This document shows positions 20,142 through 42,673 of a stretch of 64,000 bases of DNA, piece by piece (position 1 is the first letter of the stretch; each line of letters starts with the position of its first letter). Below the pieces are notes generated by a model. That model was given only the letters and a program-made list of their open reading frames with translations, was not told where the DNA came from and searched no databases. This DNA is from an uncultured Pelagibacteraceae bacterium (GTDB lineage: Bacteria; Pseudomonadota; Alphaproteobacteria; Pelagibacterales; Pelagibacteraceae). Location: the NCBI GenBank assembly GCA_902545635.1, contig CACCGT010000002.1, positions 1 to 64,000 of the forward strand. The letters run 5' to 3'. A program made the position numbers and the translations under genes.

Positions 20142-20338
20142 TGTATAAAAATTATAAATTATGGATTTTTCTTGGAGCTGCAGTTATCTTTCTTTATTTA
20201 AGTGTGGGAAAATATGAAGAGTTTAGTGTTCAAAAATCTATTTCAGCCTGCGTATTAGCAAAAAGTAAAATAAAAAAAGATATGAGTCCTCAAGAAGCAA
20301 GAAAAGTTTGCGAAGTGGAAATTAAACAAAACAAGTGA
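20141..20338 (+). CDS. 65-residue membrane-anchored protein
   Basis: A short protein with one N-terminal hydrophobic helix (LWIFLGAAVIFLYLSVG) and a polar C-terminal domain holding two cysteines, ending in EVEIKQNK. The cysteine pair outside the helix suggests an exported domain with a disulfide. It overlaps the desaturase-like gene by one base at its start and the hydrolase gene by GTGA at its end, so it is translationally linked to both. Family unknown. Confidence 0.75.
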   Translation: MYKNYKLWIFLGAAVIFLYLSVGKYEEFSVQKSISACVLAKSKIKKDMSPQEARKVCEVEIKQNK

Positions 20339-21264
20339 GAATTTTTTTTTATTTATTTTTATTTAACTTAATTTTTAATAGTTATTCTCTATCAGATACA
20401 AGATTTGAAAAAGACTTAAAAAAACTCTCCAAATATAATTTTTTTGTTAACAACGAAGGCAATAGTTATGAATTAGATAAAAATATTGATAAAGATAAAA
20501 TAATAATCTTAATTTACAGTCATGGAAGTGGAGGTTCAGAGAGAAATTTGCAAAAATGTAATAAATCCTGGTGGCAAATTCCCCCAACAGTTTATCAATT
20601 GGATGGAGTAAAAATTAAAGATTTCACAATCAAAACTTATCAACTGTGCAAAGGTGCAAGAGGATTTTCACAGAAAGATGGAGACTTGTTTTGGGACACT
20701 TATGATAAAAATAATCAAGATGTCAATAGTGTTCTAGATCTCAAGGATGAAAATGGCGTATTATTAATTCAGAAATGGGAGGGACCAATACAAGAAAAAG
20801 TTATTAAGTTGAAGGTTGATGAATTTAAACAGAGAGGTTTTAATAATATCGTTCTTTCAGGTCACTCAGCTGGTGGATGGGACTCACTAGTTTTAAAATC
20901 AAATTTTTCATCAGAAATTGATGGTGTAATAGCATTCCATCCTGCAAGATCAGGAAAATTTGCTGGTACAAAAAAACCACACAAAGGTTGGATAAATTGG
21001 AGAAATTATAAAATATCAATGATAAAAGTAGATCAACTACAAAATGTTTTAGTTTTTAGCCATAAAAAAGATAAATATGAAAACCCCAAAACATCTAAAT
21101 TTTTATCTAATTCAGAAAATGTAAGATTTGTTGATGTAAGCGATACTAATTGTAAAAAAAAATTAAAAACTGGTGGGTGGCATGGAATAACTCTTACTAA
21201 GTGTTTTGCTAACAAAGATCCCAAAAGAAAAGAAATAATAAAATATTTAGAGGATATTTTCTAA
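20335..21264 (+). CDS. Exported alpha/beta hydrolase, first of a tandem pair
   Basis: A 309-residue protein with a signal peptide (FFYLFLFNLIFNSYSLS) and an alpha/beta hydrolase core. The nucleophile elbow is SGHSAGG and a likely catalytic His lies in GGWHGITL near the C-terminus. The LIYSHGSGG segment would form the oxyanion loop. Start is GTG, coupled to the preceding gene. It is clearly paralogous to the next gene. The substrate is unknown; periplasmic ester or lactone hydrolysis is plausible. Confidence 0.8.
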   Translation: MRIFFYLFLFNLIFNSYSLSDTRFEKDLKKLSKYNFFVNNEGNSYELDKNIDKDKIIILIYSHGSGGSERNLQKCNKSWWQIPPTVYQLDGVKIKDFTIKTYQLCKGARGFSQKDGDLFWDTYDKNNQDVNSVLDLKDENGVLLIQKWEGPIQEKVIKLKVDEFKQRGFNNIVLSGHSAGGWDSLVLKSNFSSEIDGVIAFHPARSGKFAGTKKPHKGWINWRNYKISMIKVDQLQNVLVFSHKKDKYENPKTSKFLSNSENVRFVDVSDTNCKKKLKTGGWHGITLTKCFANKDPKRKEIIKYLEDIF

Positions 21265-22203
21265 ATGAAATTTAAACTTATATTAATTTTTTTACTTTTT
21301 TTTTATAATTTCGCTTTCGCTAAAACTAAATCTGAAATACGTTTTGAAAAAGATTTAATAAAAATTTCCAAGTTAAATTCCTTTGTAGACAATAAAGGAA
21401 ATCCTTATGACTTGGATGAAAATATCGATAAAGGTAAAACTATTATTTTAATTTATACCCATGGTGGGTGGGGTGGACAAAGAAAATTAAACGGTTGTAA
21501 TAGACCATGGAGTAAAATACCACCTGCAATCTATCAATTAGATGGAACTCAAATAAAAGATTTAACTATAAAAACATATCAATTGTGCTCTGGTGTAAAA
21601 GGCTTGACTCAAAACGACCAGGATAAATTTTGGGAAATGTACAATAAAAATAATCAAGATGTAAATAGCGTATTAGATCTTAAAGATAAAAATGGAATTC
21701 TTTTAATTAATAAACTTAAAGACAATCTAAAATATAAAGTAATGAAGTTAAAAATTGATGAGTTTAAAAAAAAGGGTTTCAATAATATTGTATTATCTGG
21801 ACATTCTGCGGGTGCGTATGGTTCTTTTATATTAAAATCAAATTTTCCTGAGAAAATAAATGGAGTAATTTCCTTTCATATAGGATTTGGGGGCAAATTT
21901 GCAAAAGCAAAAAATCCAGACCAAGGTTGGATAAATTGGAGAAACTATAAAAAATCTCTTATTAATTGGTCTCAGTTAGGTGAGGTTATTTTATTTACTC
22001 ATGATAAAGATTGGGCAGACACAAGAAAGACTTTAAGTTTTTTGACAGAGTTTAATAATATTAAATTTTTTGATTTAAGTGATACCCAATGTAAAAAGAA
22101 AAAATTATTAGGTGACTACCATGGAATTGCTTTAACAAAATGTTTTGCAGAAAAGGATCCAAGAAGTAAAGAAGTAATTAGATATTTAGAAAAATTATTT
22201 TAA
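21265..22203 (+). CDS. Exported alpha/beta hydrolase, second of a tandem pair
   Basis: A 312-residue paralogue of the preceding gene and directly adjacent to it. It has a signal peptide (LILIFLLFFYNFAFA), the oxyanion segment YTHGGWGG, the nucleophile motif SGHSAGAYG and a C-terminal DYHGIALTKCF segment. Blocks such as KNNQDVNSVLDLKD and GWINWRNYK are shared with its neighbour, so the pair arose by duplication. The gene ends four bases into the convergent TRAP permease gene. Confidence 0.8.
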   Translation: MKFKLILIFLLFFYNFAFAKTKSEIRFEKDLIKISKLNSFVDNKGNPYDLDENIDKGKTIILIYTHGGWGGQRKLNGCNRPWSKIPPAIYQLDGTQIKDLTIKTYQLCSGVKGLTQNDQDKFWEMYNKNNQDVNSVLDLKDKNGILLINKLKDNLKYKVMKLKIDEFKKKGFNNIVLSGHSAGAYGSFILKSNFPEKINGVISFHIGFGGKFAKAKNPDQGWINWRNYKKSLINWSQLGEVILFTHDKDWADTRKTLSFLTEFNNIKFFDLSDTQCKKKKLLGDYHGIALTKCFAEKDPRSKEVIRYLEKLF

Positions 22204-27069: not shown

Positions 27070-27146
27070 GGCGGGGTAGCTCAGTTGGTTAGAGCGCGGG
27101 ACTCATAAGCCCGAGGTCAGTGGTTCGATCCCACTTCCCGCTACCA
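27070..27146 (+). tRNA. tRNA with CAT anticodon (Met, or Ile2 if lysidine-modified)
   Basis: A 77-base cloverleaf can be folded by eye: acceptor GGCGGGG with TCCCGCT (G-U pairs at both ends), D arm GCTC/GAGC, anticodon loop CTCATAA, T arm AGTGG/CCACT with loop TTCGATC, and an encoded CCA end. The anticodon stem CGGGA/GCCCG has an A-G opposition next to the loop. CAT could read AUG (elongator Met) or AUA after lysidine modification. The acceptor resembles alphaproteobacterial elongator tRNA-Met; it lacks the mismatched first pair expected of an initiator. Confidence 0.93.
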
Positions 27147-29822: not shown

Positions 29823-30896
29823 ATGAGAGTAAAAGGAAAAAAATATAGAACAATTTGGTATGAAAATAATATAGTTAAAATAATTGATCAAACTAAACTT
29901 CCACATCTGTTTGTTGTTAAAGAATTGAAGTCAATAAAAGATGCGGTAAAAGCAATAAAAACTATGGAAGTAAGGGGAGCACCTCTTATTGGTGGTACTG
30001 CTGCTTATGGAATAGTATTAGCAATCCAAGAAAATAAAGATTTAGATTTTATTAAAAAAAGTTCAGAAGAACTAGTTAATTCAAGACCAACAGCTATAAA
30101 CTTACAATGGGCAATTCATAGAATGAATAACAAATTATCATTTGTGAAGTCTAATGAATTATTAGAAGTAGCGTTAAAAGAAGCAAAATTAATATGTGAT
30201 GAGGATATAAAATTTTGTGAAAATATAGGTCTAAATGGATTAAAAATTATAGAGGAAATCTATAATAAAAATAATAAAACAGTAAATATTCTTACTCATT
30301 GTAATGCAGGATGGTTAGCAACTATAGATTGGGGAACGGCAACCTCACCAATTTATCATGCTCATAAAATAGGAATTCCTGTTCATGTATGGGTTGATGA
30401 AACAAGACCAAGAAATCAAGGTGCAAATTTAACTTCATTTGAACTAAATGAAGAAGGAATACCAAATACAATTATAACAGATAATACAGGTGGTATTTTA
30501 ATGCAAAGAGGTGAGGTTGATATGTGCATTGTAGGAACTGATAGAACTTTATCAACGGGTGATGTTTGTAATAAAATTGGTACTTATTTAAAAGCTTTGG
30601 CTGCATATGATAATAATGTACCTTTCTATGTAGCTCTGCCAAGCTCCACTATTGATTGGGAAACAAAAGATTATAATGAGATACCAATTGAAGAGAGGGA
30701 CGCCGAAGAACTATCTTATATAGAGGGAAAAGATGATAAAAATAACATCAATAAAGTTTTGATTTATCCTGAAAAGAGTAAATCCATGAATCTTGCTTTT
30801 GATATTACACCTGCAAAATATGTGACAGGCTTAATAACAGAAAAAGGTGTGTGTGAAGCATCTACAAATGGTCTAAAAAAAATGTTTAAACAGTAA
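29823..30896 (+). CDS. mtnA: Methylthioribose-1-phosphate isomerase
   Basis: A 357-residue member of the MtnA/eIF2B-alpha family that converts methylthioribose-1-phosphate to methylthioribulose-1-phosphate. Motifs are MEVRGAPLIGGTAAYG, ILTHCNAGWLAT with the catalytic Cys, and VGTDRTLSTGDVCNKIGTY with the catalytic Asp. It follows the PhyH-type gene directly and overlaps the sulfatase start by one base. The later steps of the classical pathway (MtnB, C, D) are not next to it. Confidence 0.95.
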   Translation: MRVKGKKYRTIWYENNIVKIIDQTKLPHLFVVKELKSIKDAVKAIKTMEVRGAPLIGGTAAYGIVLAIQENKDLDFIKKSSEELVNSRPTAINLQWAIHRMNNKLSFVKSNELLEVALKEAKLICDEDIKFCENIGLNGLKIIEEIYNKNNKTVNILTHCNAGWLATIDWGTATSPIYHAHKIGIPVHVWVDETRPRNQGANLTSFELNEEGIPNTIITDNTGGILMQRGEVDMCIVGTDRTLSTGDVCNKIGTYLKALAAYDNNVPFYVALPSSTIDWETKDYNEIPIEERDAEELSYIEGKDDKNNINKVLIYPEKSKSMNLAFDITPAKYVTGLITEKGVCEASTNGLKKMFKQ

Positions 30897-32479
30897 TGAA
30901 TAAAGTTAAAAATATATTATTTATAATGGCTGATCAGCTAAGATTTGATTATCTATCTTGTTATGGTCATCCACATCTAAAAACACCTCATATAGATGGA
31001 TTAGCAAAAAAAGGAGTATTGTTTGAGTCAGCCTATGTTCAAGCACCCGTTTGTGGGCCTTCAAGAGCATCATATTACACTGGAAGAACAGTATTTAGTC
31101 ATGGCTCAACATGGAATCAAATACCCTTGCCAATAGGAGAATTAACTATTGGGGATTATTTAAGACAATCTGGAATAAGAACTGGCGTTGTAGGTAAAAC
31201 TCATATGAGACCTGATTTAGATGGAATGAACAGACTTGGAATATCTAAAGATACAGAAATAGGTCTGACAGTTAGTGAGCCAGGGTTTGAGCCTTATGAG
31301 AGAGATGATGGACTTCATCCAAATAACCATATTAAAAATTCAAACAAAAAATTATCTTACAATGAATGGTTAAATAAACTTGGATACGAAGGAGAAAATC
31401 CATGGGATAGTTGGGCAAATTCATCTGAGGATGAAAATGGAAAAATTTTAAGTGGTTGGAGGTTAAGAAATTCAAATAAACCTGCAAGGGTTAAAGAAGA
31501 ACACTCTGAAACTGCATTTATGACAAACCGTTCAATGGAATTCATTCAAGAAAGCGAAGATAAGCCTTGGTTTTTACATTTATCTTATATTAAACCTCAT
31601 TGGCCATACATTGCTCCTGCACCTTATCATAATATGTATTCAGCAAATCAATTTTATCCAGTTCATCGAAGCAATACTGAAAAAGAAATAGATCATCCTG
31701 TTTACAAAGCATTTATGGAAAACAATATTTCAAAAACTTTTTCAAGAGAAGAGGTGAGAAATACTGTTCTTGCAGGATATATGGGATTGATAAAACAAAT
31801 TGATGACAATCTCGGAAGACTATTTAAATTTCTGGAAGATAAAGATTATATGAAAAATACCATGATAGTCTTTACCTCAGATCATGGTGACTACCAGGGT
31901 GATCATTGGCTAGGTGAAAAAGAATTATTCCATGAACAAATTGTTAAAGTCCCTATGATTATTTATGACCCTAGTAATTTGTCAAACAATAATAGAGGAG
32001 TAAGAGAAAAGAGATTTGTTGAGGCTATTGATTTGCTCCCAACTTTCTTAGACTCTGTTGAAAGTAAAGTAAGCAGACATCGTCTAGAGGGACAGTCTTT
32101 ACTCCCAATTATAAGAGGCAAAAAAGTATTAAATTGGAAGGAAAGTGTATTTAGCGAAATTGATTATTCATTTAATGAGGCAAGAAAAATTTTAAATATT
32201 GGTGCATCTGATGCTAGGGCATATATGATTAGAAATAATAAGTGGAAGTATATTTACTATAAAGGATTTTCACCACAATTATTTGACTTAATAAATGATC
32301 CTGATGAATTTAATGACCTTGGACAGTCTCCTAAATACTCAAAAATAGTTGATGAAATGAAAGATATTCTCCTTGATAGGATTACTAGTCGAAAAAATAG
32401 AGTTGCTGCAACAGATGAATTTGTTTTGAAAGATAGAGATTATACCAAAGATGATGGAATTATGATAGGTGTATGGTAA
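30896..32479 (+). CDS. Sulfatase / phosphonate monoester hydrolase family protein
   Basis: A 527-residue alkaline-phosphatase-superfamily enzyme. The formylglycine motif is CGPSR with Cys53 as the residue to be modified, followed by ASYYTGR. Metal ligands appear in IMADQLR at the N-terminus and in FTSDHGDYQGDHWL. There is no signal peptide, so it is probably cytoplasmic. It is translationally coupled to mtnA. The substrate, sulfate ester or phosphonate/phosphate diester, cannot be told. Confidence 0.88.
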   Translation: MNKVKNILFIMADQLRFDYLSCYGHPHLKTPHIDGLAKKGVLFESAYVQAPVCGPSRASYYTGRTVFSHGSTWNQIPLPIGELTIGDYLRQSGIRTGVVGKTHMRPDLDGMNRLGISKDTEIGLTVSEPGFEPYERDDGLHPNNHIKNSNKKLSYNEWLNKLGYEGENPWDSWANSSEDENGKILSGWRLRNSNKPARVKEEHSETAFMTNRSMEFIQESEDKPWFLHLSYIKPHWPYIAPAPYHNMYSANQFYPVHRSNTEKEIDHPVYKAFMENNISKTFSREEVRNTVLAGYMGLIKQIDDNLGRLFKFLEDKDYMKNTMIVFTSDHGDYQGDHWLGEKELFHEQIVKVPMIIYDPSNLSNNNRGVREKRFVEAIDLLPTFLDSVESKVSRHRLEGQSLLPIIRGKKVLNWKESVFSEIDYSFNEARKILNIGASDARAYMIRNNKWKYIYYKGFSPQLFDLINDPDEFNDLGQSPKYSKIVDEMKDILLDRITSRKNRVAATDEFVLKDRDYTKDDGIMIGVW

Positions 32480-32817
32480 TGAATCCATTAATATTATCTT
32501 TAATTGGTTTAGTATTAGTCGGCGTATCTGCAAACTTATTAAAATTAATTAAAAAAAATAAAATTTTTTTATTAATATCAATGCTACCTTGTATTTATAT
32601 TTTTATTTATGGTTTATATGCAACTTTTGGACCGATTGATTTATACAAAGATGGCACTGAAAATTTTATTGCTCAGAACCCTGGAAAAGATTTACCAGTA
32701 GTATTTGTCCTTTTGAAGTTTTATCAATATATATTGATCTTCGTTGGAGCTATTTTTGGATTAATTTATTTTAATTATTTTCGAAATTTTGATAATTCTA
32801 CGGAGTCATCAGACTAG
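32479..32817 (+). CDS. Small integral membrane protein of unknown function
   Basis: A 112-residue protein with three likely membrane helices (ILSLIGLVLVGVSANLL, IFLLISMLPCIYIFIYGLY and FYQYILIFVGAIFGLIYF). The ATG at 32479 overlaps the sulfatase stop (TAATG); another ATG two codons upstream at 32473 is equally readable. It ends 20 bases into the convergent TRAP permease gene. No family is recognised. Confidence 0.7.
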   Translation: MNPLILSLIGLVLVGVSANLLKLIKKNKIFLLISMLPCIYIFIYGLYATFGPIDLYKDGTENFIAQNPGKDLPVVFVLLKFYQYILIFVGAIFGLIYFNYFRNFDNSTESSD

Positions 32818-34108
32818 GTAAATACAAACATATAGCTGGAAAAGCTATAATTAATGCAAGTCTAATTACATCAGTCATTAAAAAAGGAAGCGTACCAAAC
32901 CAAATAGTTTGTAAGGGTGTTTTCTGCATAACACCTTTAATTACAAATAAATTCATACCAACCGGGGGAGAAATTAATCCAAATTCAACAACAATTACTG
33001 CAAATATTCCAAACCACACAGGATCTATTCCTGCATCAACTATTACTGGATAGAAAACTGGAATAGTTAAAAATAACATTGCTAACGAGTCCATAACAGT
33101 TCCGAGAACTAAATATATTACACAAATAACGAGAATTACTCCTAGCGGAGTAAGCTCAAGATAATTAATAAAATCAACTACTGCAAAAGGCAATTGTGTG
33201 ACAGTTATTAGATAATTAAATATACTTGCTCCTATTACAATTAAATATAATGATCCAACCGTTTTGATAGTTGTCCAAACAGCATCTTTTAAAAGATTTA
33301 ATTTTAATTGACCTCTAAAAAATATAAAAATTAAAACTAATATCACTCCTACAGCTGCACTTTCAGTTGCTGTAAAAAAACCTAAGTAAAGTCCACCCAT
33401 CATGATTACAAAAATTAAAAAAATAGGAAAAACTTTTGAGAGGGCAGAAATTCTCTCTTTTAATGGCATCTTAACTCCGTATCCACCTTGTGACGGATAA
33501 ATTAAAAGATAAACCCTTATTGCAATCATATAAAGTACAACAGCAATTATCCCAGGTATTAATGCAGCAAAAAAAAGTTCCTGAACAGATTGTTCTGTTA
33601 AATATGCATATATGACTAATATTACACTTGGAGGAATAATAATCCCTAGTGTTCCACCTGATGCAATAGAACCACTTATTAGAGCATCACTATATCCATG
33701 TCTTCTCATTTCTGGACCGGCCATTTGAGACATTGTAGCAGCTGTAGCAATTGATGATCCACAAATCATTCCAAAACCAGCACAGGCACCTACAGTTGAC
33801 ATTGCTAGTCCGCCTTTATAATGACCTACAACTGCATAAGCAGCATCATAAAGATTTCTTGATAGATTGGAGCTATTTGCAAGATTTCCCATCAAAACAA
33901 AGAGTGGTAAAACCGATAATGTATATTTAGATACAGCGTCAAATGGGGCGGTTCCTAGTACAAATATCGCTGGATCAAAACCTGATATCATTGCAAAACC
34001 AGTAAAGCCAACTACTAACATTGCAATACCTATTGGAACGTTCAAAACCATTAAAATTAAGACCGCAGCGAAAGCTAAGCCACCGTTAATTACAGCCTCA
34101 ATTCCCAT
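32798..34108 (-). CDS. dctM: TRAP transporter large permease (second system)
   Basis: A 436-residue DctM-type permease with about twelve helices. Typical segments are LPLFVLMGNLANSS, GFGMICGSSIATAATMSQ and the LGIIIPPSVILVIYAYL loop. It shares its first base region with the end of the small permease on the same strand. The matching binding protein is probably the gene at 35564 on the other strand, across a hydrolase-family gene. Confidence 0.93.
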   Translation of the reverse strand: MGIEAVINGGLAFAAVLILMVLNVPIGIAMLVVGFTGFAMISGFDPAIFVLGTAPFDAVSKYTLSVLPLFVLMGNLANSSNLSRNLYDAAYAVVGHYKGGLAMSTVGACAGFGMICGSSIATAATMSQMAGPEMRRHGYSDALISGSIASGGTLGIIIPPSVILVIYAYLTEQSVQELFFAALIPGIIAVVLYMIAIRVYLLIYPSQGGYGVKMPLKERISALSKVFPIFLIFVIMMGGLYLGFFTATESAAVGVILVLIFIFFRGQLKLNLLKDAVWTTIKTVGSLYLIVIGASIFNYLITVTQLPFAVVDFINYLELTPLGVILVICVIYLVLGTVMDSLAMLFLTIPVFYPVIVDAGIDPVWFGIFAVIVVEFGLISPPVGMNLFVIKGVMQKTPLQTIWFGTLPFLMTDVIRLALIIAFPAICLYLPSLMTP

Positions 34109-34596
34109 TAAGCCTGTTTCTCTAAATTATTTACTAAAAGAGTTTTTACAAACCAAACTAGAATAGCAAGTACACTTAACCACATACCAATAGAGCATAT
34201 GAAATAAAATGGATAAAAATAAAGTTCTAGATCGATAGTTACTCTTTGATTGTTCATAAATTTGTAGGAAGTTAAAGTTGTCGAGTATGCCATTAATGAC
34301 ATTATTGAAATCATTAAAATAAACTTTAAAATCACTAAATAAGTTTTAAATATCCCTAAATCTAAATTATTAACAAAGTCTGCTGATACATTTGCATTTA
34401 AAAAAAAAGCTCTTGGCATAGCAAGAAACGCAACTAGAGCCATGCCTATCTCAACTAGTTCAATTGTACCTGTAACTGGAGAGTTTAAAAAACGTCTTCC
34501 AAAAACATCACAAAAAGTTAATACAGCTAATAAAAATAATATAATACCCGAGGCCATAGCTGAATAATCAAAAACTCTACTGACTTTAGAAATCAT
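34108..34596 (-). CDS. dctQ: TRAP transporter small permease (second system)
   Basis: A 162-residue four-helix DctQ-type protein. The FCDVFGRRFLNSPVTGTIELVEIG-type region after the first helix (GRRF and ELVEIGMAL) is characteristic of the family. It is first in a two-gene minus-strand operon with the large permease and is divergent from the FAH-family gene by 67 bases. Confidence 0.9.
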   Translation of the reverse strand: MISKVSRVFDYSAMASGIILFLLAVLTFCDVFGRRFLNSPVTGTIELVEIGMALVAFLAMPRAFFLNANVSADFVNNLDLGIFKTYLVILKFILMISIMSLMAYSTTLTSYKFMNNQRVTIDLELYFYPFYFICSIGMWLSVLAILVWFVKTLLVNNLEKQA

Positions 34597-34663
34597 AAAA
34601 ATGTTGCTTCAAATTCTTCAAACATTACCATATAAACTGTATCAAAAATAGAAAGTATTACTT

Positions 34664-35515
34664 ATGAAATTTATTTCCTTTGCGCATAATGGACAAAAAA
34701 AATTTGGCATTATCAATAATAATAAAATAACAGATTTGACTGGAAAAGTTAATGACTCAATCACATTAAAAGATTTGATTTTAAATAAAGGTATCCATGA
34801 AGCAAAAAATTATGCAAAAAATAATCCAGGAGATTTAAATGTTTCAGATGTTGAGTATTTACCATTAATACCAAATCCAGGAAAAATTATATGTGTTGGT
34901 TTAAATTATAGTGAACACGTAAAAGAAACTAATAGAACAGTAGAGGAAAATCCTGTTATATTTCACAGATTTCCAGAAAGCCAGACTGCACACTTACAAT
35001 CTATTCAAAGACCAGTTGTATCACATAGCTTAGACTTTGAGGGTGAGATGGCGGTAATCATGGGCGAGGGGGGAAAACATATAAAACCAGATGATGCACT
35101 AAAACACATAGTTGGATATTCTTGTTATAATGAAAGTACTATTAGAGAATGGCAAAGACATACAAGACAATTTGGAATGGGAAAAAACTTTGAAAAGACA
35201 GGAAGCTTTGGTCCACATATGGTTTTAGCAGAAGATATAAAAGACTATAAAAATCTAACTATTGAAACTAGATTAAATGGTGAGGTCATGCAAAATGCAA
35301 AATTAAGTCAACTTATTTTTGATATACCCATTTTAATTTCTTATGTATCTAAAGCTATGGCTTGGAGAGCAGGTGATGTTCTTGTAACTGGAACTCCAGG
35401 AGGAGTAGGCTTTAAAAGAAATCCTCCAATATTCATGAAACCTGGTGACAAAGTTGAGATAGAAATTACAGAAATTGGTATTTTATCTAACACAATTAAG
35501 GATGAAATAATCTAG
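34664..35515 (+). CDS. Fumarylacetoacetate hydrolase (FAH)-family protein
   Basis: A 283-residue protein with the FAH catalytic domain: ICVGLNYSEHVKE, the metal-binding LDFEGEMAVIMG with its acidic residues, and the late TGTPGGVGFKR motif. The family includes acylpyruvate hydrolases and the hydratases/decarboxylases of meta-cleavage pathways (MhpD, HpaG types). Lying between TRAP genes and upstream of a ring-cleaving dioxygenase, it probably handles the cleavage product. The exact reaction is inference. Confidence 0.87.
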   Translation: MKFISFAHNGQKKFGIINNNKITDLTGKVNDSITLKDLILNKGIHEAKNYAKNNPGDLNVSDVEYLPLIPNPGKIICVGLNYSEHVKETNRTVEENPVIFHRFPESQTAHLQSIQRPVVSHSLDFEGEMAVIMGEGGKHIKPDDALKHIVGYSCYNESTIREWQRHTRQFGMGKNFEKTGSFGPHMVLAEDIKDYKNLTIETRLNGEVMQNAKLSQLIFDIPILISYVSKAMAWRAGDVLVTGTPGGVGFKRNPPIFMKPGDKVEIEITEIGILSNTIKDEII

Positions 35516-35563
35516 ATTTCACTATAGACTTTATCAAATTATTTTTAACAGAGGGAAATTAAT

Positions 35564-36577
35564 ATGAAAAAAAAATTAATTGGAATTGTTTTAGGAATTT
35601 TTTCCTTAAGCATTATTAGTTCAGCTTCTGCTACTGAATTAAAGTTGGCAACTTTTGAACCACCAAAAGCATTTATAGCAAGTAAGATTTTAGCTGCTTG
35701 GGCAGATAAGGTAAATAAATGCTCAAATGGTGCTTTAAATGTAAAAATGTATGCAGGTGGAGTTTTAGGAAGTCCTCCTAAACAATATGACATTGTAACT
35801 TCAGGTGTTGCAGATATTTCTTGGACAGTTCTAGGATATATTGGGGGTCAATTTCCACTAAGTTCTGTTGTTGAATTACCATTTTTAACAAAAACATCAA
35901 AAGCTGGATCTAGAGCTTTGAACACTCTTTATGAAGAAGGTTACTTAGATAAAGAAATGGCTGGAATTAAACTTATAGGTCTACATTCCAACCCTGGATA
36001 TCAAATCCATATGAAGGATACAAAAGTCGTTAAACCTTCAGATTTCAAAGGTAAAAAAATGAGAGTGCCAAGCAAAATAGCTGGAACTATACTTAAAACT
36101 TTAGGAGCAACAGGTGTAAAAGTACCAGCACCAGGAACTTCTGAGGCTTTAAACAAAGGTGTTATAGATGGAACTCCTTTTCCTTATACAGCTATAGGTT
36201 CATTTAGATTATTCGATGTAACAAAATATCATACAGAGGTTAACATTACTAACGCAACATTTGGATTAATAATGAATGAAGGAAAGTATAATGGTCTTTC
36301 ATCAGCAGCCAAAGGATGTGTTGATAAACATTCAGGTCAGTGGTTTGGAGATTGGGCTTCTAATTTAATTGATACTCAGAATGCTAAAATGAGGGTACAG
36401 GTCGAAAATACACCTGGACATGAAATTACTGTTGCATCTGATTCAGTTTTAGCTGAATACAAAAAAATATTAGCTCCAATCGAAGCAGACTGGTTAGCAG
36501 AAATGAAAGGCAAAGGCCTTGATGGAGATGCTGTTTTAAAAAGAGCAAGAGAAGTGATTTCTAAAATAGACGGCTAA
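35564..36577 (+). CDS. dctP: TRAP transporter periplasmic substrate-binding protein (second system)
   Basis: A 337-residue exported binding protein with a signal peptide ending near SSASATE. Family patterns include LAAWADKVNKCSNG, MYAGGVLGSPPKQYD and the ligand-binding segment KGKKMRVPSKI with its conserved Arg. A GAGGGA ribosome site is eight bases before the ATG. It lies downstream of the FAH-family gene and is followed by a strong terminator, so it ends that transcript. It probably serves the divergent permease pair at 32798-34596. Confidence 0.9.
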   Translation: MKKKLIGIVLGIFSLSIISSASATELKLATFEPPKAFIASKILAAWADKVNKCSNGALNVKMYAGGVLGSPPKQYDIVTSGVADISWTVLGYIGGQFPLSSVVELPFLTKTSKAGSRALNTLYEEGYLDKEMAGIKLIGLHSNPGYQIHMKDTKVVKPSDFKGKKMRVPSKIAGTILKTLGATGVKVPAPGTSEALNKGVIDGTPFPYTAIGSFRLFDVTKYHTEVNITNATFGLIMNEGKYNGLSSAAKGCVDKHSGQWFGDWASNLIDTQNAKMRVQVENTPGHEITVASDSVLAEYKKILAPIEADWLAEMKGKGLDGDAVLKRAREVISKIDG

Positions 36578-36589
36578 CCGATTAATTCC

Positions 36590-36618
36590 GAGCCCGCTAA
36601 TTTCATAGCGGGCTCTTT
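36590..36618 (+). terminator. Hairpin terminator after the TRAP binding-protein gene
   Basis: A perfect 9-bp GC-rich stem (GAGCCCGCT with AGCGGGCTC) around an 8-base loop, followed by TTT. It begins 13 bases after the stop codon. The T run is short, but the stem is unusually GC-rich for this genome. It separates the binding-protein gene from the dioxygenase gene. Confidence 0.75.
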
Positions 36619-36640
36619 CAAAATCTAGTATATTAATAAA

Positions 36641-37615
36641 ATGGCAGTTAAAGCACTTAGTTATATTGGAGTTAATTCTGATAAATTTGATGAATGGTCT
36701 ATTTATTCACAAAAGTACTTAGGAATGCAAAAAATGGATCGTGGAAAAGATATTTTGTCTTTTCGAATGGATGATCAAAAACAAAGACTAACAATTACTG
36801 GTGAAAAGGGAGATAGTCTTGGTTTTTTAGGATGGGAAGTTGAAACTAAAGAAGATCTTCAAATTTTTGCATCAAAACTTGAAAAAAATAAAACAATTGT
36901 TCATCAAGGTAAATCTTCATTGGCAGATAAACGTTTCGTTAAGGATTTAATATATTTTGATGATCCACAAGGGAATCGTATAGAACTTGTTTATAAACCA
37001 ATGTTAGATACTGATCCTTTTAAACCAGGAAGACCTATTTCTGGATTTAAAACAGGAGCTTTAGGAATGGGTCACGCTGTAATTCATGTTAAAAAAATTG
37101 ATGATTTAATACCTTTTTATAGAGATACAATGGGATTTAAAATTAGTGATTATAGCCATACTCCTATATCACTATGCTTTTTTCATGTTAATGGAAGACA
37201 CCATAGTTTAGCTTTGTTTGGTTCTGGACGAACAGGCTTTCATCATTTTATGGTTGAATATAATAATCTCGATGATGTTGGCCAAGGTTATGACCTATTA
37301 CAGTATAAAGATAATGCGATCGCATACACCATGGGAAGACATACAAATGATTACATGACATCTTTTTATTCAATAACTCCATCTGGTTTTTTTATTGAAA
37401 ATGGCTGGGGAGGAAGAATTATTGATCCAGAAACCTGGCAACCAATAGAAACATTTGAGGGACCTAGTTTTTGGGGACATGAAAGACTTTATCTGCCAGA
37501 TGACGAAAGAATGAAATTCAGAAATAAAAGACTTGAAACTGCATCTCAAGGAAAACAAGCGCCATTGTTAATTGACTGTCCTTGGTTATATACAAACTTA
37601 AATAAAAAAAAATAA
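36641..37615 (+). CDS. Type I extradiol (catechol meta-cleavage) dioxygenase
   Basis: A 324-residue two-domain VOC-fold enzyme of the BphC/2,3-dihydroxybiphenyl dioxygenase group. Expected iron ligands are the His in MGHAVIHVK, the His in GFHHFMVEY and the Glu in TPSGFFIENGWGG. It would open a catechol-type ring next to the hydroxyls. It is followed after 11 bases by a flavin hydroxylase gene, the usual partner that makes the dihydroxy substrate. The natural substrate cannot be read. Confidence 0.88.
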   Translation: MAVKALSYIGVNSDKFDEWSIYSQKYLGMQKMDRGKDILSFRMDDQKQRLTITGEKGDSLGFLGWEVETKEDLQIFASKLEKNKTIVHQGKSSLADKRFVKDLIYFDDPQGNRIELVYKPMLDTDPFKPGRPISGFKTGALGMGHAVIHVKKIDDLIPFYRDTMGFKISDYSHTPISLCFFHVNGRHHSLALFGSGRTGFHHFMVEYNNLDDVGQGYDLLQYKDNAIAYTMGRHTNDYMTSFYSITPSGFFIENGWGGRIIDPETWQPIETFEGPSFWGHERLYLPDDERMKFRNKRLETASQGKQAPLLIDCPWLYTNLNKKK

Positions 37616-37626
37616 TAAAAATATCA

Positions 37627-39087
37627 ATGAGGGAATTTGATATAACTATTGTTGGATTAGGTCCTACTGGAGGAACTTTAGCAAATCTTTTGGCTATGCA
37701 TGGTTTTTCAATTTTAATACTTGAAAAAGAAAAAAGTTTTTATCCATTACCTAGAGCTGTTCATTTTGATGATGAAATAATGAGGGTATTTCAAACTATA
37801 GGGATAACAAAAGATTTTTTGAGATATACTATTATAAATAAAGGCACAAAATTTGTTAATTCAAAGCAAAAAGTAATATTAGATTGGCCTAGACCAAAAC
37901 AAATTACAGATAATGGCTGGTATCCGAGTTATAGATTTCATCAACCAGATTTAGAAAAGCAACTCAGAAAAAGATTAAAAAGTTATAAAAAAGTATTAAT
38001 AGAGCAAAATGCAAATGTCTTAAAAATTAAAAATTCAAAAAATAATGTAAATATCAAATACGTAAATTCTAAAAACAAAAAAATTTTTCATATAAAATCA
38101 AAATATTTAGTTGGATGTGATGGAGCCAATTCAATTACGAGAAGACAAATGAAAACAAAGATGAATAACTTAGGTTTTACTCAAAAATGGGCAGTCGTAG
38201 ATTTAATTTTAAAAAAGAATAAAAAAAATTTACCGGATAGAACTATTCAGTATTCAAATCCTAAACAACCCGCAACTTATTGTAGAAATGTTGGCAAAAG
38301 AAGAAGATGGGAATTTGCAATTAAAAAAAACCTTAGCGACAAAAAAGTTTTATCAGAAAATTATGTTTGGAATTTTTTAAAACCTTGGATAAAAAAAAGT
38401 GAAGCTATACTTGAAAGGAAAACTATTTATACTTTTAAATCAGCAATGGCGAGAAAATGGCGTAATGGTAGAATTTTTATTGCCGGAGATGCGGCTCATT
38501 TAATGCCTCCATTTATGGGACAAGGAATGTGTGCTGGAATAAGAGATGCATCAAATCTAGCTTGGAAAATTTCATCATGTTTAAGAGTTAAACATAATGA
38601 AGCTCTTTTAAATTCATATCAATCAGAAAGGGCCCTAAATGCTAAAGAATATATTGAAACAACTATGAGAATGGGTGAGTTTGTAAATGCAGTAGAATCT
38701 ATACAAATCACAGAAAATATAAGTTCTAATGATAAAGGTGTTAAAAGCATGCAATCAATTAAACCAAAATTAGGAAAAGGTATTGGTAACATGAAAGATA
38801 AAAATAGAGGGAAAATTTTTCCTCAATTTAAATTAAAAAAAAATAAAAATTTGGATGATTATTTTTCAAAAAAAGGAATTATAATATTATCATCCTCAAT
38901 TAAAGCCAAAAATATAAAAAATAGTTCTTTACTAAAAGTGAAAAACTTTAAAAGTATATCAGCCTATTTAAAAAGTATTAATTCAAAAGCTATTTTAGTA
39001 AGACCAGATAGATTTATTTTGGGTTCTGCTAATTCAAATCAAGAATTTAATTCAATTATAAAAAAATATTCAAATATTTTAAGATAA
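37627..39087 (+). CDS. FAD-dependent aromatic hydroxylase (MhpA-like)
   Basis: A 486-residue group A flavin monooxygenase. The N-terminal FAD motif is GLGPTGGTLAN, the middle motif GCDGANSITRR and the second FAD motif GDAAHLMPPFMGQGMCAGIRD. It resembles 3-(3-hydroxyphenyl)propionate hydroxylase. With the extradiol dioxygenase upstream and the FAH-family gene further up, it fits a hydroxylation and meta-cleavage route. The C-terminal thioredoxin-like part is short and lysine-rich. It overlaps the convergent BKACE gene by 9 bases. Confidence 0.87.
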   Translation: MREFDITIVGLGPTGGTLANLLAMHGFSILILEKEKSFYPLPRAVHFDDEIMRVFQTIGITKDFLRYTIINKGTKFVNSKQKVILDWPRPKQITDNGWYPSYRFHQPDLEKQLRKRLKSYKKVLIEQNANVLKIKNSKNNVNIKYVNSKNKKIFHIKSKYLVGCDGANSITRRQMKTKMNNLGFTQKWAVVDLILKKNKKNLPDRTIQYSNPKQPATYCRNVGKRRRWEFAIKKNLSDKKVLSENYVWNFLKPWIKKSEAILERKTIYTFKSAMARKWRNGRIFIAGDAAHLMPPFMGQGMCAGIRDASNLAWKISSCLRVKHNEALLNSYQSERALNAKEYIETTMRMGEFVNAVESIQITENISSNDKGVKSMQSIKPKLGKGIGNMKDKNRGKIFPQFKLKKNKNLDDYFSKKGIIILSSSIKAKNIKNSSLLKVKNFKSISAYLKSINSKAILVRPDRFILGSANSNQEFNSIIKKYSNILR

Positions 39088-39864
39088 TTTAAAAAGTTTA
39101 TTTATTGCCTTTATCTTTGAATGATTATTAGGTGCAATTTCTCCGTCTGGCATAAATAATGAATTTTCAAATCCTACTCTTAACTTGCCACCTAGACTAA
39201 CTGCCTTTTCTAGACAACTCATTTCTTCTTTTGCAAATGCACATATAGACCAGTCAAAATTAACACTATTTGTTTTCATTTTTTCTATGAACTCAGGAAT
39301 TTTTTCTGGGTAACTAATTTTGCCAGTATAATGACCAATTACAAATAAACACCACACTCCATCTGCAGGGATTTCTGATTTTTTCAAAAGATCAATCAAT
39401 AAATCTATATCATCTGGACTATACAAAATATGTTGAATTTTAGTCCCTGCTTCAGTTAAATATTTATACAATTTAATATCCTCAATCGTGGGTTTTCTGG
39501 AGGGAATTAATTCAGATGTACCTATGGAGGTTCCTGGTGGGGTCACATCATAAGCTAGTTTCCTCATATCATCTGGGGAATATTTTCCTACTGCTTCAGT
39601 TGTAACTTGTATGTGCATGTTTGGAACTTGAAATTCTAACTCTTTTAAAGCTTCCTTATATAAACCGGCATCAAGAACATGTTCTCCTTTATCATTTCTT
39701 ACATGTAAATGGATTGCTTTTGCACCTGCCTCAAAGCAGTTTTTAGCTACTTCAACAGTCTCTTTTATAGTTAAAGGAACCTCAGGATGATCTTTCTTTA
39801 GCTTTCGGGCTCCATTTGGAGCTACCATTAAACTCGGTAATTTATCTGGTTGAAAAAAAGCCAT
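39079..39864 (-). CDS. BKACE (DUF849) family beta-keto acid cleavage protein
   Basis: A 261-residue TIM-barrel protein of the beta-keto acid cleavage enzyme family, which joins a beta-keto acid with acetyl-CoA. Zinc ligands are His residues in AIHLHVRND and the Glu in VGFENSLF; SIGTSELIPSR and VTTEAVG are also family segments. It is slightly short compared with the usual 270-310 residues. It is divergent from the class II aldolase by 44 bases. The substrate is unknown. Confidence 0.85.
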   Translation of the reverse strand: MAFFQPDKLPSLMVAPNGARKLKKDHPEVPLTIKETVEVAKNCFEAGAKAIHLHVRNDKGEHVLDAGLYKEALKELEFQVPNMHIQVTTEAVGKYSPDDMRKLAYDVTPPGTSIGTSELIPSRKPTIEDIKLYKYLTEAGTKIQHILYSPDDIDLLIDLLKKSEIPADGVWCLFVIGHYTGKISYPEKIPEFIEKMKTNSVNFDWSICAFAKEEMSCLEKAVSLGGKLRVGFENSLFMPDGEIAPNNHSKIKAINKLFKLS

Positions 39865-39908
39865 ATATTGATTCTAATTAATATTTAAAATTATTATATA
39901 TAAATAAA

Positions 39909-40538
39909 ATGAAACTACAAAAAAAAGAAATTATTAAATTTGCTAAAATGCTTAATGATAAAAAATTATCAGCATTAAGATCAGGTAATATTTCAATAAG
40001 ATATAAAAATGGATTTCTAATAACTCCTTCAGGTCAAAAATATTCATCTTTAAAAGTAAAAGATATTGTTTTTGTAAATCTAGAAGGAGAGTTTAATAAA
40101 AAACAAAAACCTTCTTCTGAATGGAGATTTCATCAAGACATATATATTTCAAAGACAAATGCTAAAGCAATAGTTCATTCTCATTCTACAAATGCCACAG
40201 CTCTATCAACGCATAATAAAAAAATACCATCATTTCATTACATGGTGGCTTTAGCAGGTGGATCAGATATCAAATGTGCAAAATATGCAACATATGGAAC
40301 AAGAGAATTATCAAAAAATATTCTTAAAGCTTTGAAAAATAGATTTGCATGTTTAATCGCAAATCATGGACAGATCGCATTTGGATCCAGTCTTGCAGAT
40401 GCATTTGAATTAGCAGAAGAAGTTGACAATCTTGCCAAACAATATATCAAAGCCCTCTTGTTAGGGAGACCAAAACTTTTAAGTTTAAAAGAAATGAAAA
40501 AAGTTTTAAATAAAAGCAAATCATATAAAAAAAGGTAG
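39909..40538 (+). CDS. Class II aldolase/adducin family protein
   Basis: A 209-residue zinc enzyme of the fuculose-phosphate aldolase group. The zinc His pair is in VHSHSTNA and a third His in ANHGQIAFG; the SGNISIRY and TPSG segments bind phosphate. The gene ends one base before the speD-speE fusion, so the two are one transcript. Since SpeE makes methylthioadenosine, this could be MtnB or an Ald2-type methylthioribulose-phosphate aldolase rather than a sugar or aromatic-pathway aldolase; that is inference. Confidence 0.83.
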   Translation: MKLQKKEIIKFAKMLNDKKLSALRSGNISIRYKNGFLITPSGQKYSSLKVKDIVFVNLEGEFNKKQKPSSEWRFHQDIYISKTNAKAIVHSHSTNATALSTHNKKIPSFHYMVALAGGSDIKCAKYATYGTRELSKNILKALKNRFACLIANHGQIAFGSSLADAFELAEEVDNLAKQYIKALLLGRPKLLSLKEMKKVLNKSKSYKKR

Positions 40539-40539
40539 A

Positions 40540-41499
40540 ATGACAACAAAAGTTGGTGAACATATTACACTTGATATTTTGGGAACAAAAAAAGAATACG
40601 ATCCGGCTTTTTATGAAAAATTAGTCTATAAAATTGCTAAAATTGCAAAAGTAACAGTATTAGAAATAACAAAATACAAGTTTGAACCACAAGGGTTTAC
40701 TCTTGTAGCTTTACTAGCAGAGAGCCATATAAGCTTTCATACGTTTCCTGAAAAAGGCATAATAAGTTTTGATTTTTTTACCTGTGCAAAAGTATCCCCT
40801 TCAGTAGCTTTGGATGTTATTAAAGAGGAAATTGATCATACAAATATAATTATTAAAAAATTTAATAGAGATACTATTGACCATTACCATGACAATTATA
40901 GCTCGCCAGGTCTAAAGAAGTCTTACATAGTTAAAAAAGTTTTAGAAAAATTTAAGTCTGAGGTTGGACAGCAAATAGAAATTTTAGAATTAGAACAGTT
41001 TGGTAAAGCACTATTCATAGACAACGAAATTCAGGTTGCTGAAAGTGATGAGCACTTATATAGCTCAACATTTGTTAACTCTGGACTTAATCTAAATTCA
41101 AATAAAGAGAAAGCCGCAATAATTGGTGGAGGTGATGGAGGTGTTGCAAGAGAGTGTATTTCAAAAAATTTTGGTTTTATTGACTGGTTTGAATTAGATC
41201 CAGAGGTTGTAAATGTTTGTGATAAACACTTAGCAAAAATTGGAAACAAAGCTACGGAAAAAAATTCAGTAAATTGTGTGTGGGGTGATGCTTTTGAAAG
41301 CATTAAAACAGTTAACGATAATACTTATGATCAAATATTTGTTGATTTAAATGATGATCAGTACTGCATTGATTTAGCTGCAAAAAATATGAATGCCTTA
41401 GAAAGAATATTAAAACCAAAAGGTGTAATAACAGCTCAAGTAGGTAGTCAAGATAAAAAACCTGACCAAGTAAATTATTGCGCCAGGATTTTCAGATGA
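40540..41499 (+). CDS. SpeD-SpeE fusion: AdoMet decarboxylase plus C-terminally cut spermidine synthase
   Basis: A 319-residue frame. Residues 1 to about 115 are bacterial AdoMet decarboxylase: Ser62 in ESHISFHTFPE is the pyruvoyl-forming residue, with His67 and Cys82 also conserved. Residues from about 120 onward are spermidine synthase: GKALFIDNEIQVAESDEHLY, IIGGGDGGVARE, WFELDPEVV and the catalytic FVDLNDDQ. After AQVGSQDKKPDQV the protein leaves the family and ends with eight foreign residues, so roughly 80 C-terminal residues are missing. The break coincides with the start of homology to murJ. The product may be inactive as a spermidine synthase. Confidence 0.85.
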   Translation: MTTKVGEHITLDILGTKKEYDPAFYEKLVYKIAKIAKVTVLEITKYKFEPQGFTLVALLAESHISFHTFPEKGIISFDFFTCAKVSPSVALDVIKEEIDHTNIIIKKFNRDTIDHYHDNYSSPGLKKSYIVKKVLEKFKSEVGQQIEILELEQFGKALFIDNEIQVAESDEHLYSSTFVNSGLNLNSNKEKAAIIGGGDGGVARECISKNFGFIDWFELDPEVVNVCDKHLAKIGNKATEKNSVNCVWGDAFESIKTVNDNTYDQIFVDLNDDQYCIDLAAKNMNALERILKPKGVITAQVGSQDKKPDQVNYCARIFR

Positions 41500-42673
41500 C
41501 TTAAAAAAATTAGATCTTGTAATTGATCTGACCAGAATTACTTTTCCATTCTTATTTTTTATTTGTCTTGCATCTTTTTTCTCTGCAATTTTAAACTCAC
41601 ATAATAAATTTGCAGCTGCAGCAGCAGCTCCGATAATTTTAAATATATTATTAATTATTTGTCTGCTATATGCCGATAAGTTAAGTGATGATTTAGTCTA
41701 TTACTTGTCTTATTCAGTAACAATTGCAGGAATTCTTCAGTTTATTTTTTTATTAATATTTGTTAAAAAATATTTTCTATTAAAAATAAGTTTTATTTTT
41801 CGTATAAATAGAAAAGTTAAAAATTTTTTTAGCAAACTTTTACCAAGTATTTTTTCATCTGGAGTAACGCAGATAAATATCTTAATCGGAACAATTATTG
41901 CATCTTTTCAGGCAAGTGCAGTTTCATATTTATATTATGCTGATAGAATTTATCAGATTAACTTAGCTATTGCAGGCATTGCTATAGGCACTGTAATACT
42001 TCCAAATCTTAGTAGACATATCAAAAGTAAAAATTCTCTAAAAACAATAGAACTTCAAAATAAAGCTTTAGAGCTTAGTTTATTTTTAAGTTTACCAGCA
42101 TCTCTTGCTTTAATTGTTGGTTCAGAACAAATAACTTCAGCTTTATTTGGATATGGTTCTTTCGACCAGGTAAGTGTTGAAAATTCTGCAAAAGCTTTAT
42201 TTTATTTCTCTTTTGGGCTTCCTGCTTTCTCATTAATCAAAATATTTTCAACTTTTTTATTTGCAAGAAATGATACTAAAACACCTTTTAAATATTCATT
42301 AATTTCTGTAATTTTAAATATAATTATAAGTTTAAGCTTTTTTTCAAAAGTTGGTTTCATAATAATTCCAATATCAACTACAATTTCATCCTGGTTCAAT
42401 GGAATTATTTTATTGATTTTTGTAATTAACAAAAATTACTTCAAATTTAGTTCTAATTTTATAATTCAAATAATTAAAATTATTATCTCAAATATAATTT
42501 CAATTTTTATCTTTTATTTATTAATTAATTTCTTATCGAGTTCATTGGATTATGCAAATAATTATAAATTTTTATTTATTATTTTGATAGTTTTATTTAC
42601 TTTGGTTTCATACATAGGAGTTTCATTTCTTATAAAAGCCTTTAAAATTTCAGATATTAATTTAAAGTATTAA
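41474..42673 (+). pseudogene. murJ: Lipid II flippase MurJ lacking its N-terminal part
   Basis: A frame of 399 residues opening with IIAPGFSDDLKKLDLV and running to the stop at 42673. It reads as MurJ/MviN from about residue 110 of the usual 500 or so: the TRITFPFLFFICLASFFSAILNS segment, AAAAPIILN, and multiple membrane helices. An in-frame TAA (41471-41473) directly precedes it and there is no ATG, GTG or TTG near the start of homology; the first TTG is at 41705. It overlaps the cut end of the speDE frame. MurJ is normally essential, so this is a deletion remnant or an assembly join. Confidence 0.8.

Follow-up and report, generated by a model that had tools for sequence, protein, structure and literature searches.

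In Pelagibacter, fusion of SpeD (AdoMetDC) to the aminopropyltransferase SpeE is normal, and the SpeD-SpeE fusions of HTCC1062 and HTCC7211 are enzymatically active (PMC11107197). Artificial joins between genomic segments have been described for multiple displacement amplification (MDA) with phi29, where 85% of the chimeras are inverted joins and 77% carry 2–21 nt of complementarity; most chimeras join sequences <10 kb apart, joins across >10 kb forming a minority (127/475) of which only ~28–35% show complementarity (PMC1855051). A second study of MDA chimeras reported a typical overlap of ~6 nt (PMC4595205).

The DNA analysed here (the window, 64,000 nt) comprises positions 1–64000 of contig C2 of G000, a SAR11 (Pelagibacteraceae) draft assembly of 1.148 Mb in 30 contigs, with 82% completeness and 0.26% reported contamination. 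The named genomes nearest to G000 are mostly Pelagibacteraceae single-cell genomes. We infer that the draft is a single amplified genome (SAG). Within the window a SpeD-SpeE fusion gene (speDE) runs directly into murJ, which encodes the lipid II flippase, and both genes are cut at the joint. We conclude that the contig is very probably chimeric at this point: two regions lying far apart on one SAR11 chromosome would have been falsely joined at a shared 4-nt stretch, with MDA template switching as the most likely mechanism. The features concerned are as follows.

1–41475, plus strand: left arm, one true chromosome locus, whose last gene is the 5′ part of speDE
40540–41499, plus strand: truncated SpeD-SpeE fusion, 319 aa, with Pfam AdoMet_dc and Spermine_synth domains
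41472–41475, no strand: junction, very probably chimeric; AAAT, 4 nt, common to both parent loci
41472–64000, plus strand: right arm, second true chromosome locus, starting within murJ and continuing with trpS and a NifU-like gene
41474–42673, plus strand: truncated murJ without start codon, residues 111–509 of 509; intact orthologue at L032:7671–9200

The breakpoint in speDE and murJ

The original prediction placed the cut in both genes at a single point near 41475, which comparison with relatives confirmed at 41472–41475. In each of the ten relatives compared at first, DNA homology to the right-hand locus began at 41471–41472; homology to the left-hand locus stopped at 41462–41480 in the relatives compared. 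Aligning proxies of the left parent (CCTGACCAAGTAAATAATTGG) and the right parent (TTTATAAAAATTATTGCGCC) with the window (CCTGACCAAGTAAATTATTGCGCC) indicated that the parents share just the 4 nt AAAT at 41472–41475, an overlap that falls in the 2–21 nt range of MDA-type joins; an overlap of at least 4 nt is expected by chance in ~3% of random joins between these two AT-rich loci. A 30-mer spanning the junction, searched with up to 3 mismatches, occurred in 1 of 399 genus genomes, namely G000 itself, and was absent from the remaining 398, none of which need be the same strain.

On the left side, the first 312 residues of the window SpeDE matched the 347-aa G417 orthologue at 308 positions and diverged afterwards, residues 313–319 (YCARIFR) being the translation of foreign DNA. 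Intact speDE genes in relatives encode 347 aa (for example in G417) or slightly longer open frames, and the G417 locus continues unbroken past the window breakpoint. The window protein therefore misses the 35 residues of its native C terminus relative to SAR11 orthologues, rather than the ~80 residues originally estimated: even when intact, the SAR11 fusions naturally have a shorter C terminus than canonical SpeE. Downstream of intact speDE lie genes for a family 3 solute-binding protein, two permeases (amino-acid ABC transporter) and a carbon-nitrogen hydrolase.

On the right side, the open murJ frame begins with IIAPGF at 41474, its first bases overlapping the end of speDE in a different frame. 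The claim that MurJ lacks about 110 N-terminal residues and any start codon was borne out by the intact 509-aa orthologue of the close relative L032 (AG-898-F23, 96% amino-acid identity), of which residues 111–509 remain in the window. Intact murJ encodes 509–510 aa in relatives; among the 36 relatives that gave a match, 35 had murJ frames of at least 508 aa, the lone exception lying at a contig edge. The MurJ N terminus was carried by 79 of 80 related loci, the match in the remaining locus starting 49 bases from a contig end, and murJ is therefore normally whole in this group.

Neither a mobile element nor a tRNA was found at the join, the only tRNA in the window being at 27070–27146, with no other Rfam family matched. 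Long-repeat-mediated misassembly was likewise rejected on the evidence of the window, whose sole self-match is a tandem pair at 20391–22190, and of the parents, which share 4 nt only. The tandem pair belongs to two adjacent paralogous genes at 20335–22203, encoding 309 and 312 aa with DNA 69% identical; their products carry a GHSAGG/GHSAGA motif as in alpha/beta hydrolases, and both align to one stretch in G041 and in G004. Around the tRNA-Met gene at 27070–27146, the strain-variable segment 26463–27600, mostly without DNA match in G041 and G004, looks like a small gene-turnover site.

The parent loci in relatives and in the same assembly

Both arms are collinear with relatives over tens of kilobases, and the break is thus not due to chance: window positions 1–41471 followed contig C6 of G004, and positions 41472–63291 followed contig C8 of the same genome. 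Across relatives, collinearity of the left arm extended to 41471–41480, and that of the right arm started at 41471–41472. Compared with G417, identity was 94.6% for the left arm (30603–41480, on contig C1) and 82.6% for the right arm, and G041 matched positions 1–37715 of the left arm on its contig C4 and positions 41472–64000 of the right arm on its contig C2, both at ~94%. The two arms are from the same species. Identity to G041 jumped between ~82% and 99% in 2-kb steps along the window, a mosaic expected from frequent SAR11 recombination. Contig C4 of G041, the closest relative, stops at L167 position 19988 (window position 37715), 3.7 kb short of the speDE joint; no speDE match was found in G041, a draft that seems gapped in the same region.

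In no relative compared were the speDE and murJ arms adjacent. Among four single-contig genomes of the genus, speDE and trpS-murJ were separated by roughly 0.45–0.5 Mb or more, measured the shorter way round, and lay on opposite strands in three of these genomes but on the same strand in the fourth. A simple deletion between neighbouring loci was rejected on these grounds, the loci being far apart and mostly on opposite strands.

The surroundings of intact murJ were compared in L032, where trpS follows on the right and a divergent maeB-like malic enzyme gene with a PTA domain adjoins on the left, preceded further left by genes for a BON protein, an rsmI-type methylase, a periplasmic-binding protein, a Ham1/RdgB protein and grpE. 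The original prediction had read the absence of glnD beside murJ as a missing neighbour, an argument that fails here: no member of the glnD family was detected in any of 41 SAR11 genomes searched, while the family was recovered from E. coli and Caulobacter as controls, and the usual left neighbour is the divergent malic enzyme gene. Since SAR11 genomes are without glnD, its absence is no clue. A search for an intact murJ elsewhere in the genome, also raised there, was run against the 82% complete draft and found no second copy, the sole match being the cut one. Between its two readings of the joint, a wrong join or a genuine deletion, the wrong join holds up, with one cut murJ, neighbours on other contigs and a unique junction, and the deletion does not, since the loci are widely separated and for the most part differ in strand.

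The sequences expected beyond the breakpoint were sought in G000 itself. Upstream of murJ, positions 1–1548 of L032 matched G000:C3:1–1548 on the minus strand at 98%, ending at the contig end, and positions 1549–7998 of L032 were absent from G000, leaving a 6.45 kb gap. Beyond speDE, the sequence resumed only at G000:C17:12039–12051, close to one end of this 13,053-bp contig and running downwards from there, with a gap of ~3–4.5 kb between the left arm and this continuation. Each parent locus is therefore gapped by several kilobases, as these matches on C3 and C17 indicate, and the join runs from the edge of one gap to the edge of another. The reciprocal ends coincide with contig ends, which fits missing coverage without proving it.

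The terminal segment of C17 (L151 12046–13053) carries a Gfo/Idh-like oxidoreductase frame adjoining a conserved 129-aa gene. The same slot holds a MATE-like transporter in G417 and proteasome-like and ATP-grasp-like genes in G010, and represents a variable position between conserved neighbours; these gene names come from reading the sequence, not from family search.

Origin of the join

The case for a chimera is built on independently collinear arms, a sharp breakpoint, a junction unique to G000 and continuations located on other contigs past gaps. The cause is almost certainly artificial. Either an amplification chimera or an assembler misjoin could produce such a contig, and we infer MDA rather than the assembler alone. 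In the proposed sequence of events, template switching during MDA of a single cell would have joined the two regions through AAAT, and the assembler would then have kept the chimeric join because each arm's true continuation went unrecovered. A benchmarked SAG workflow yielded 1.5 misassemblies per 100 kb (PMC11247762), and ~1 would therefore be expected per 64-kb window if the draft was produced in this way.

A genuine chromosomal rearrangement, in which microhomology-mediated repair joined speDE to murJ and cut both genes, would account for the 4-nt microhomology and for the common species origin of the two sides, but it would leave the assembly without an intact murJ and with a truncated SpeDE. 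We consider it very unlikely, because the only murJ found would be destroyed. Further evidence against it comes from the two reciprocal contig ends, at C3:1 and at the end of C17, which are bare, not joined to each other, and each missing several kilobases, and from the lack of the junction in the 398 other genus genomes, though none of these need share the strain. A real rearrangement that removed murJ residues 1–110 together with the last part of speDE, leaving lipid II to be flipped by another protein or by the truncated MurJ, is scarcely credible. That the draft instead mixes two cells or strains, making the join an inter-strain assembly chimera, might be suggested by the unequal identity of the two arms to G417 and by the 82 to 99% range of identity to G041 along the window. 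However, both arms are ~94% identical to a single genome, G041, and show a similar mosaic on either side; such variation resembles what recombination ordinarily produces in SAR11, and the reported contamination is 0.26%, making such a mixture extremely unlikely.

With a false join of two regions of one chromosome as the preferred explanation, speDE and murJ are presumably both intact in the cell, and the seeming lack of an intact murJ most likely has no biological cause. The speDE-murJ join is ordinary, a matter of quality control only, and uninformative about the organism. The contig should be split at 41471–41475, the gene calls at 40540–41499 and 41474–42673 should be marked as artefactually truncated, and the speDE-murJ neighbourhood is unusable for synteny.

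Comparison with known systems

The window SpeDE has the same two-domain architecture as the SAR11 AdoMetDC-aminopropyltransferase fusion (PMC11107197), which is intact in the window's relatives, but unlike that fusion it breaks off at residue 312, where the join lies. Similarly, the window MurJ matches its family profiles, covering positions 85–435 of Pfam MurJ (PF03023) and starting at position 110 of NCBIfam TIGR01695, whereas the N-terminal 110 residues of this lipid II flippase were lost at the join. The junction itself resembles the phi29 MDA chimeras of Lasken and Stockwell 2007 (PMC1855051), in that segments are joined at short shared bases and sequence past the breakpoints is lost. By contrast with those junctions, the join in the window survives in an assembled contig, and the loci that it connects lie hundreds of kilobases apart in relatives.
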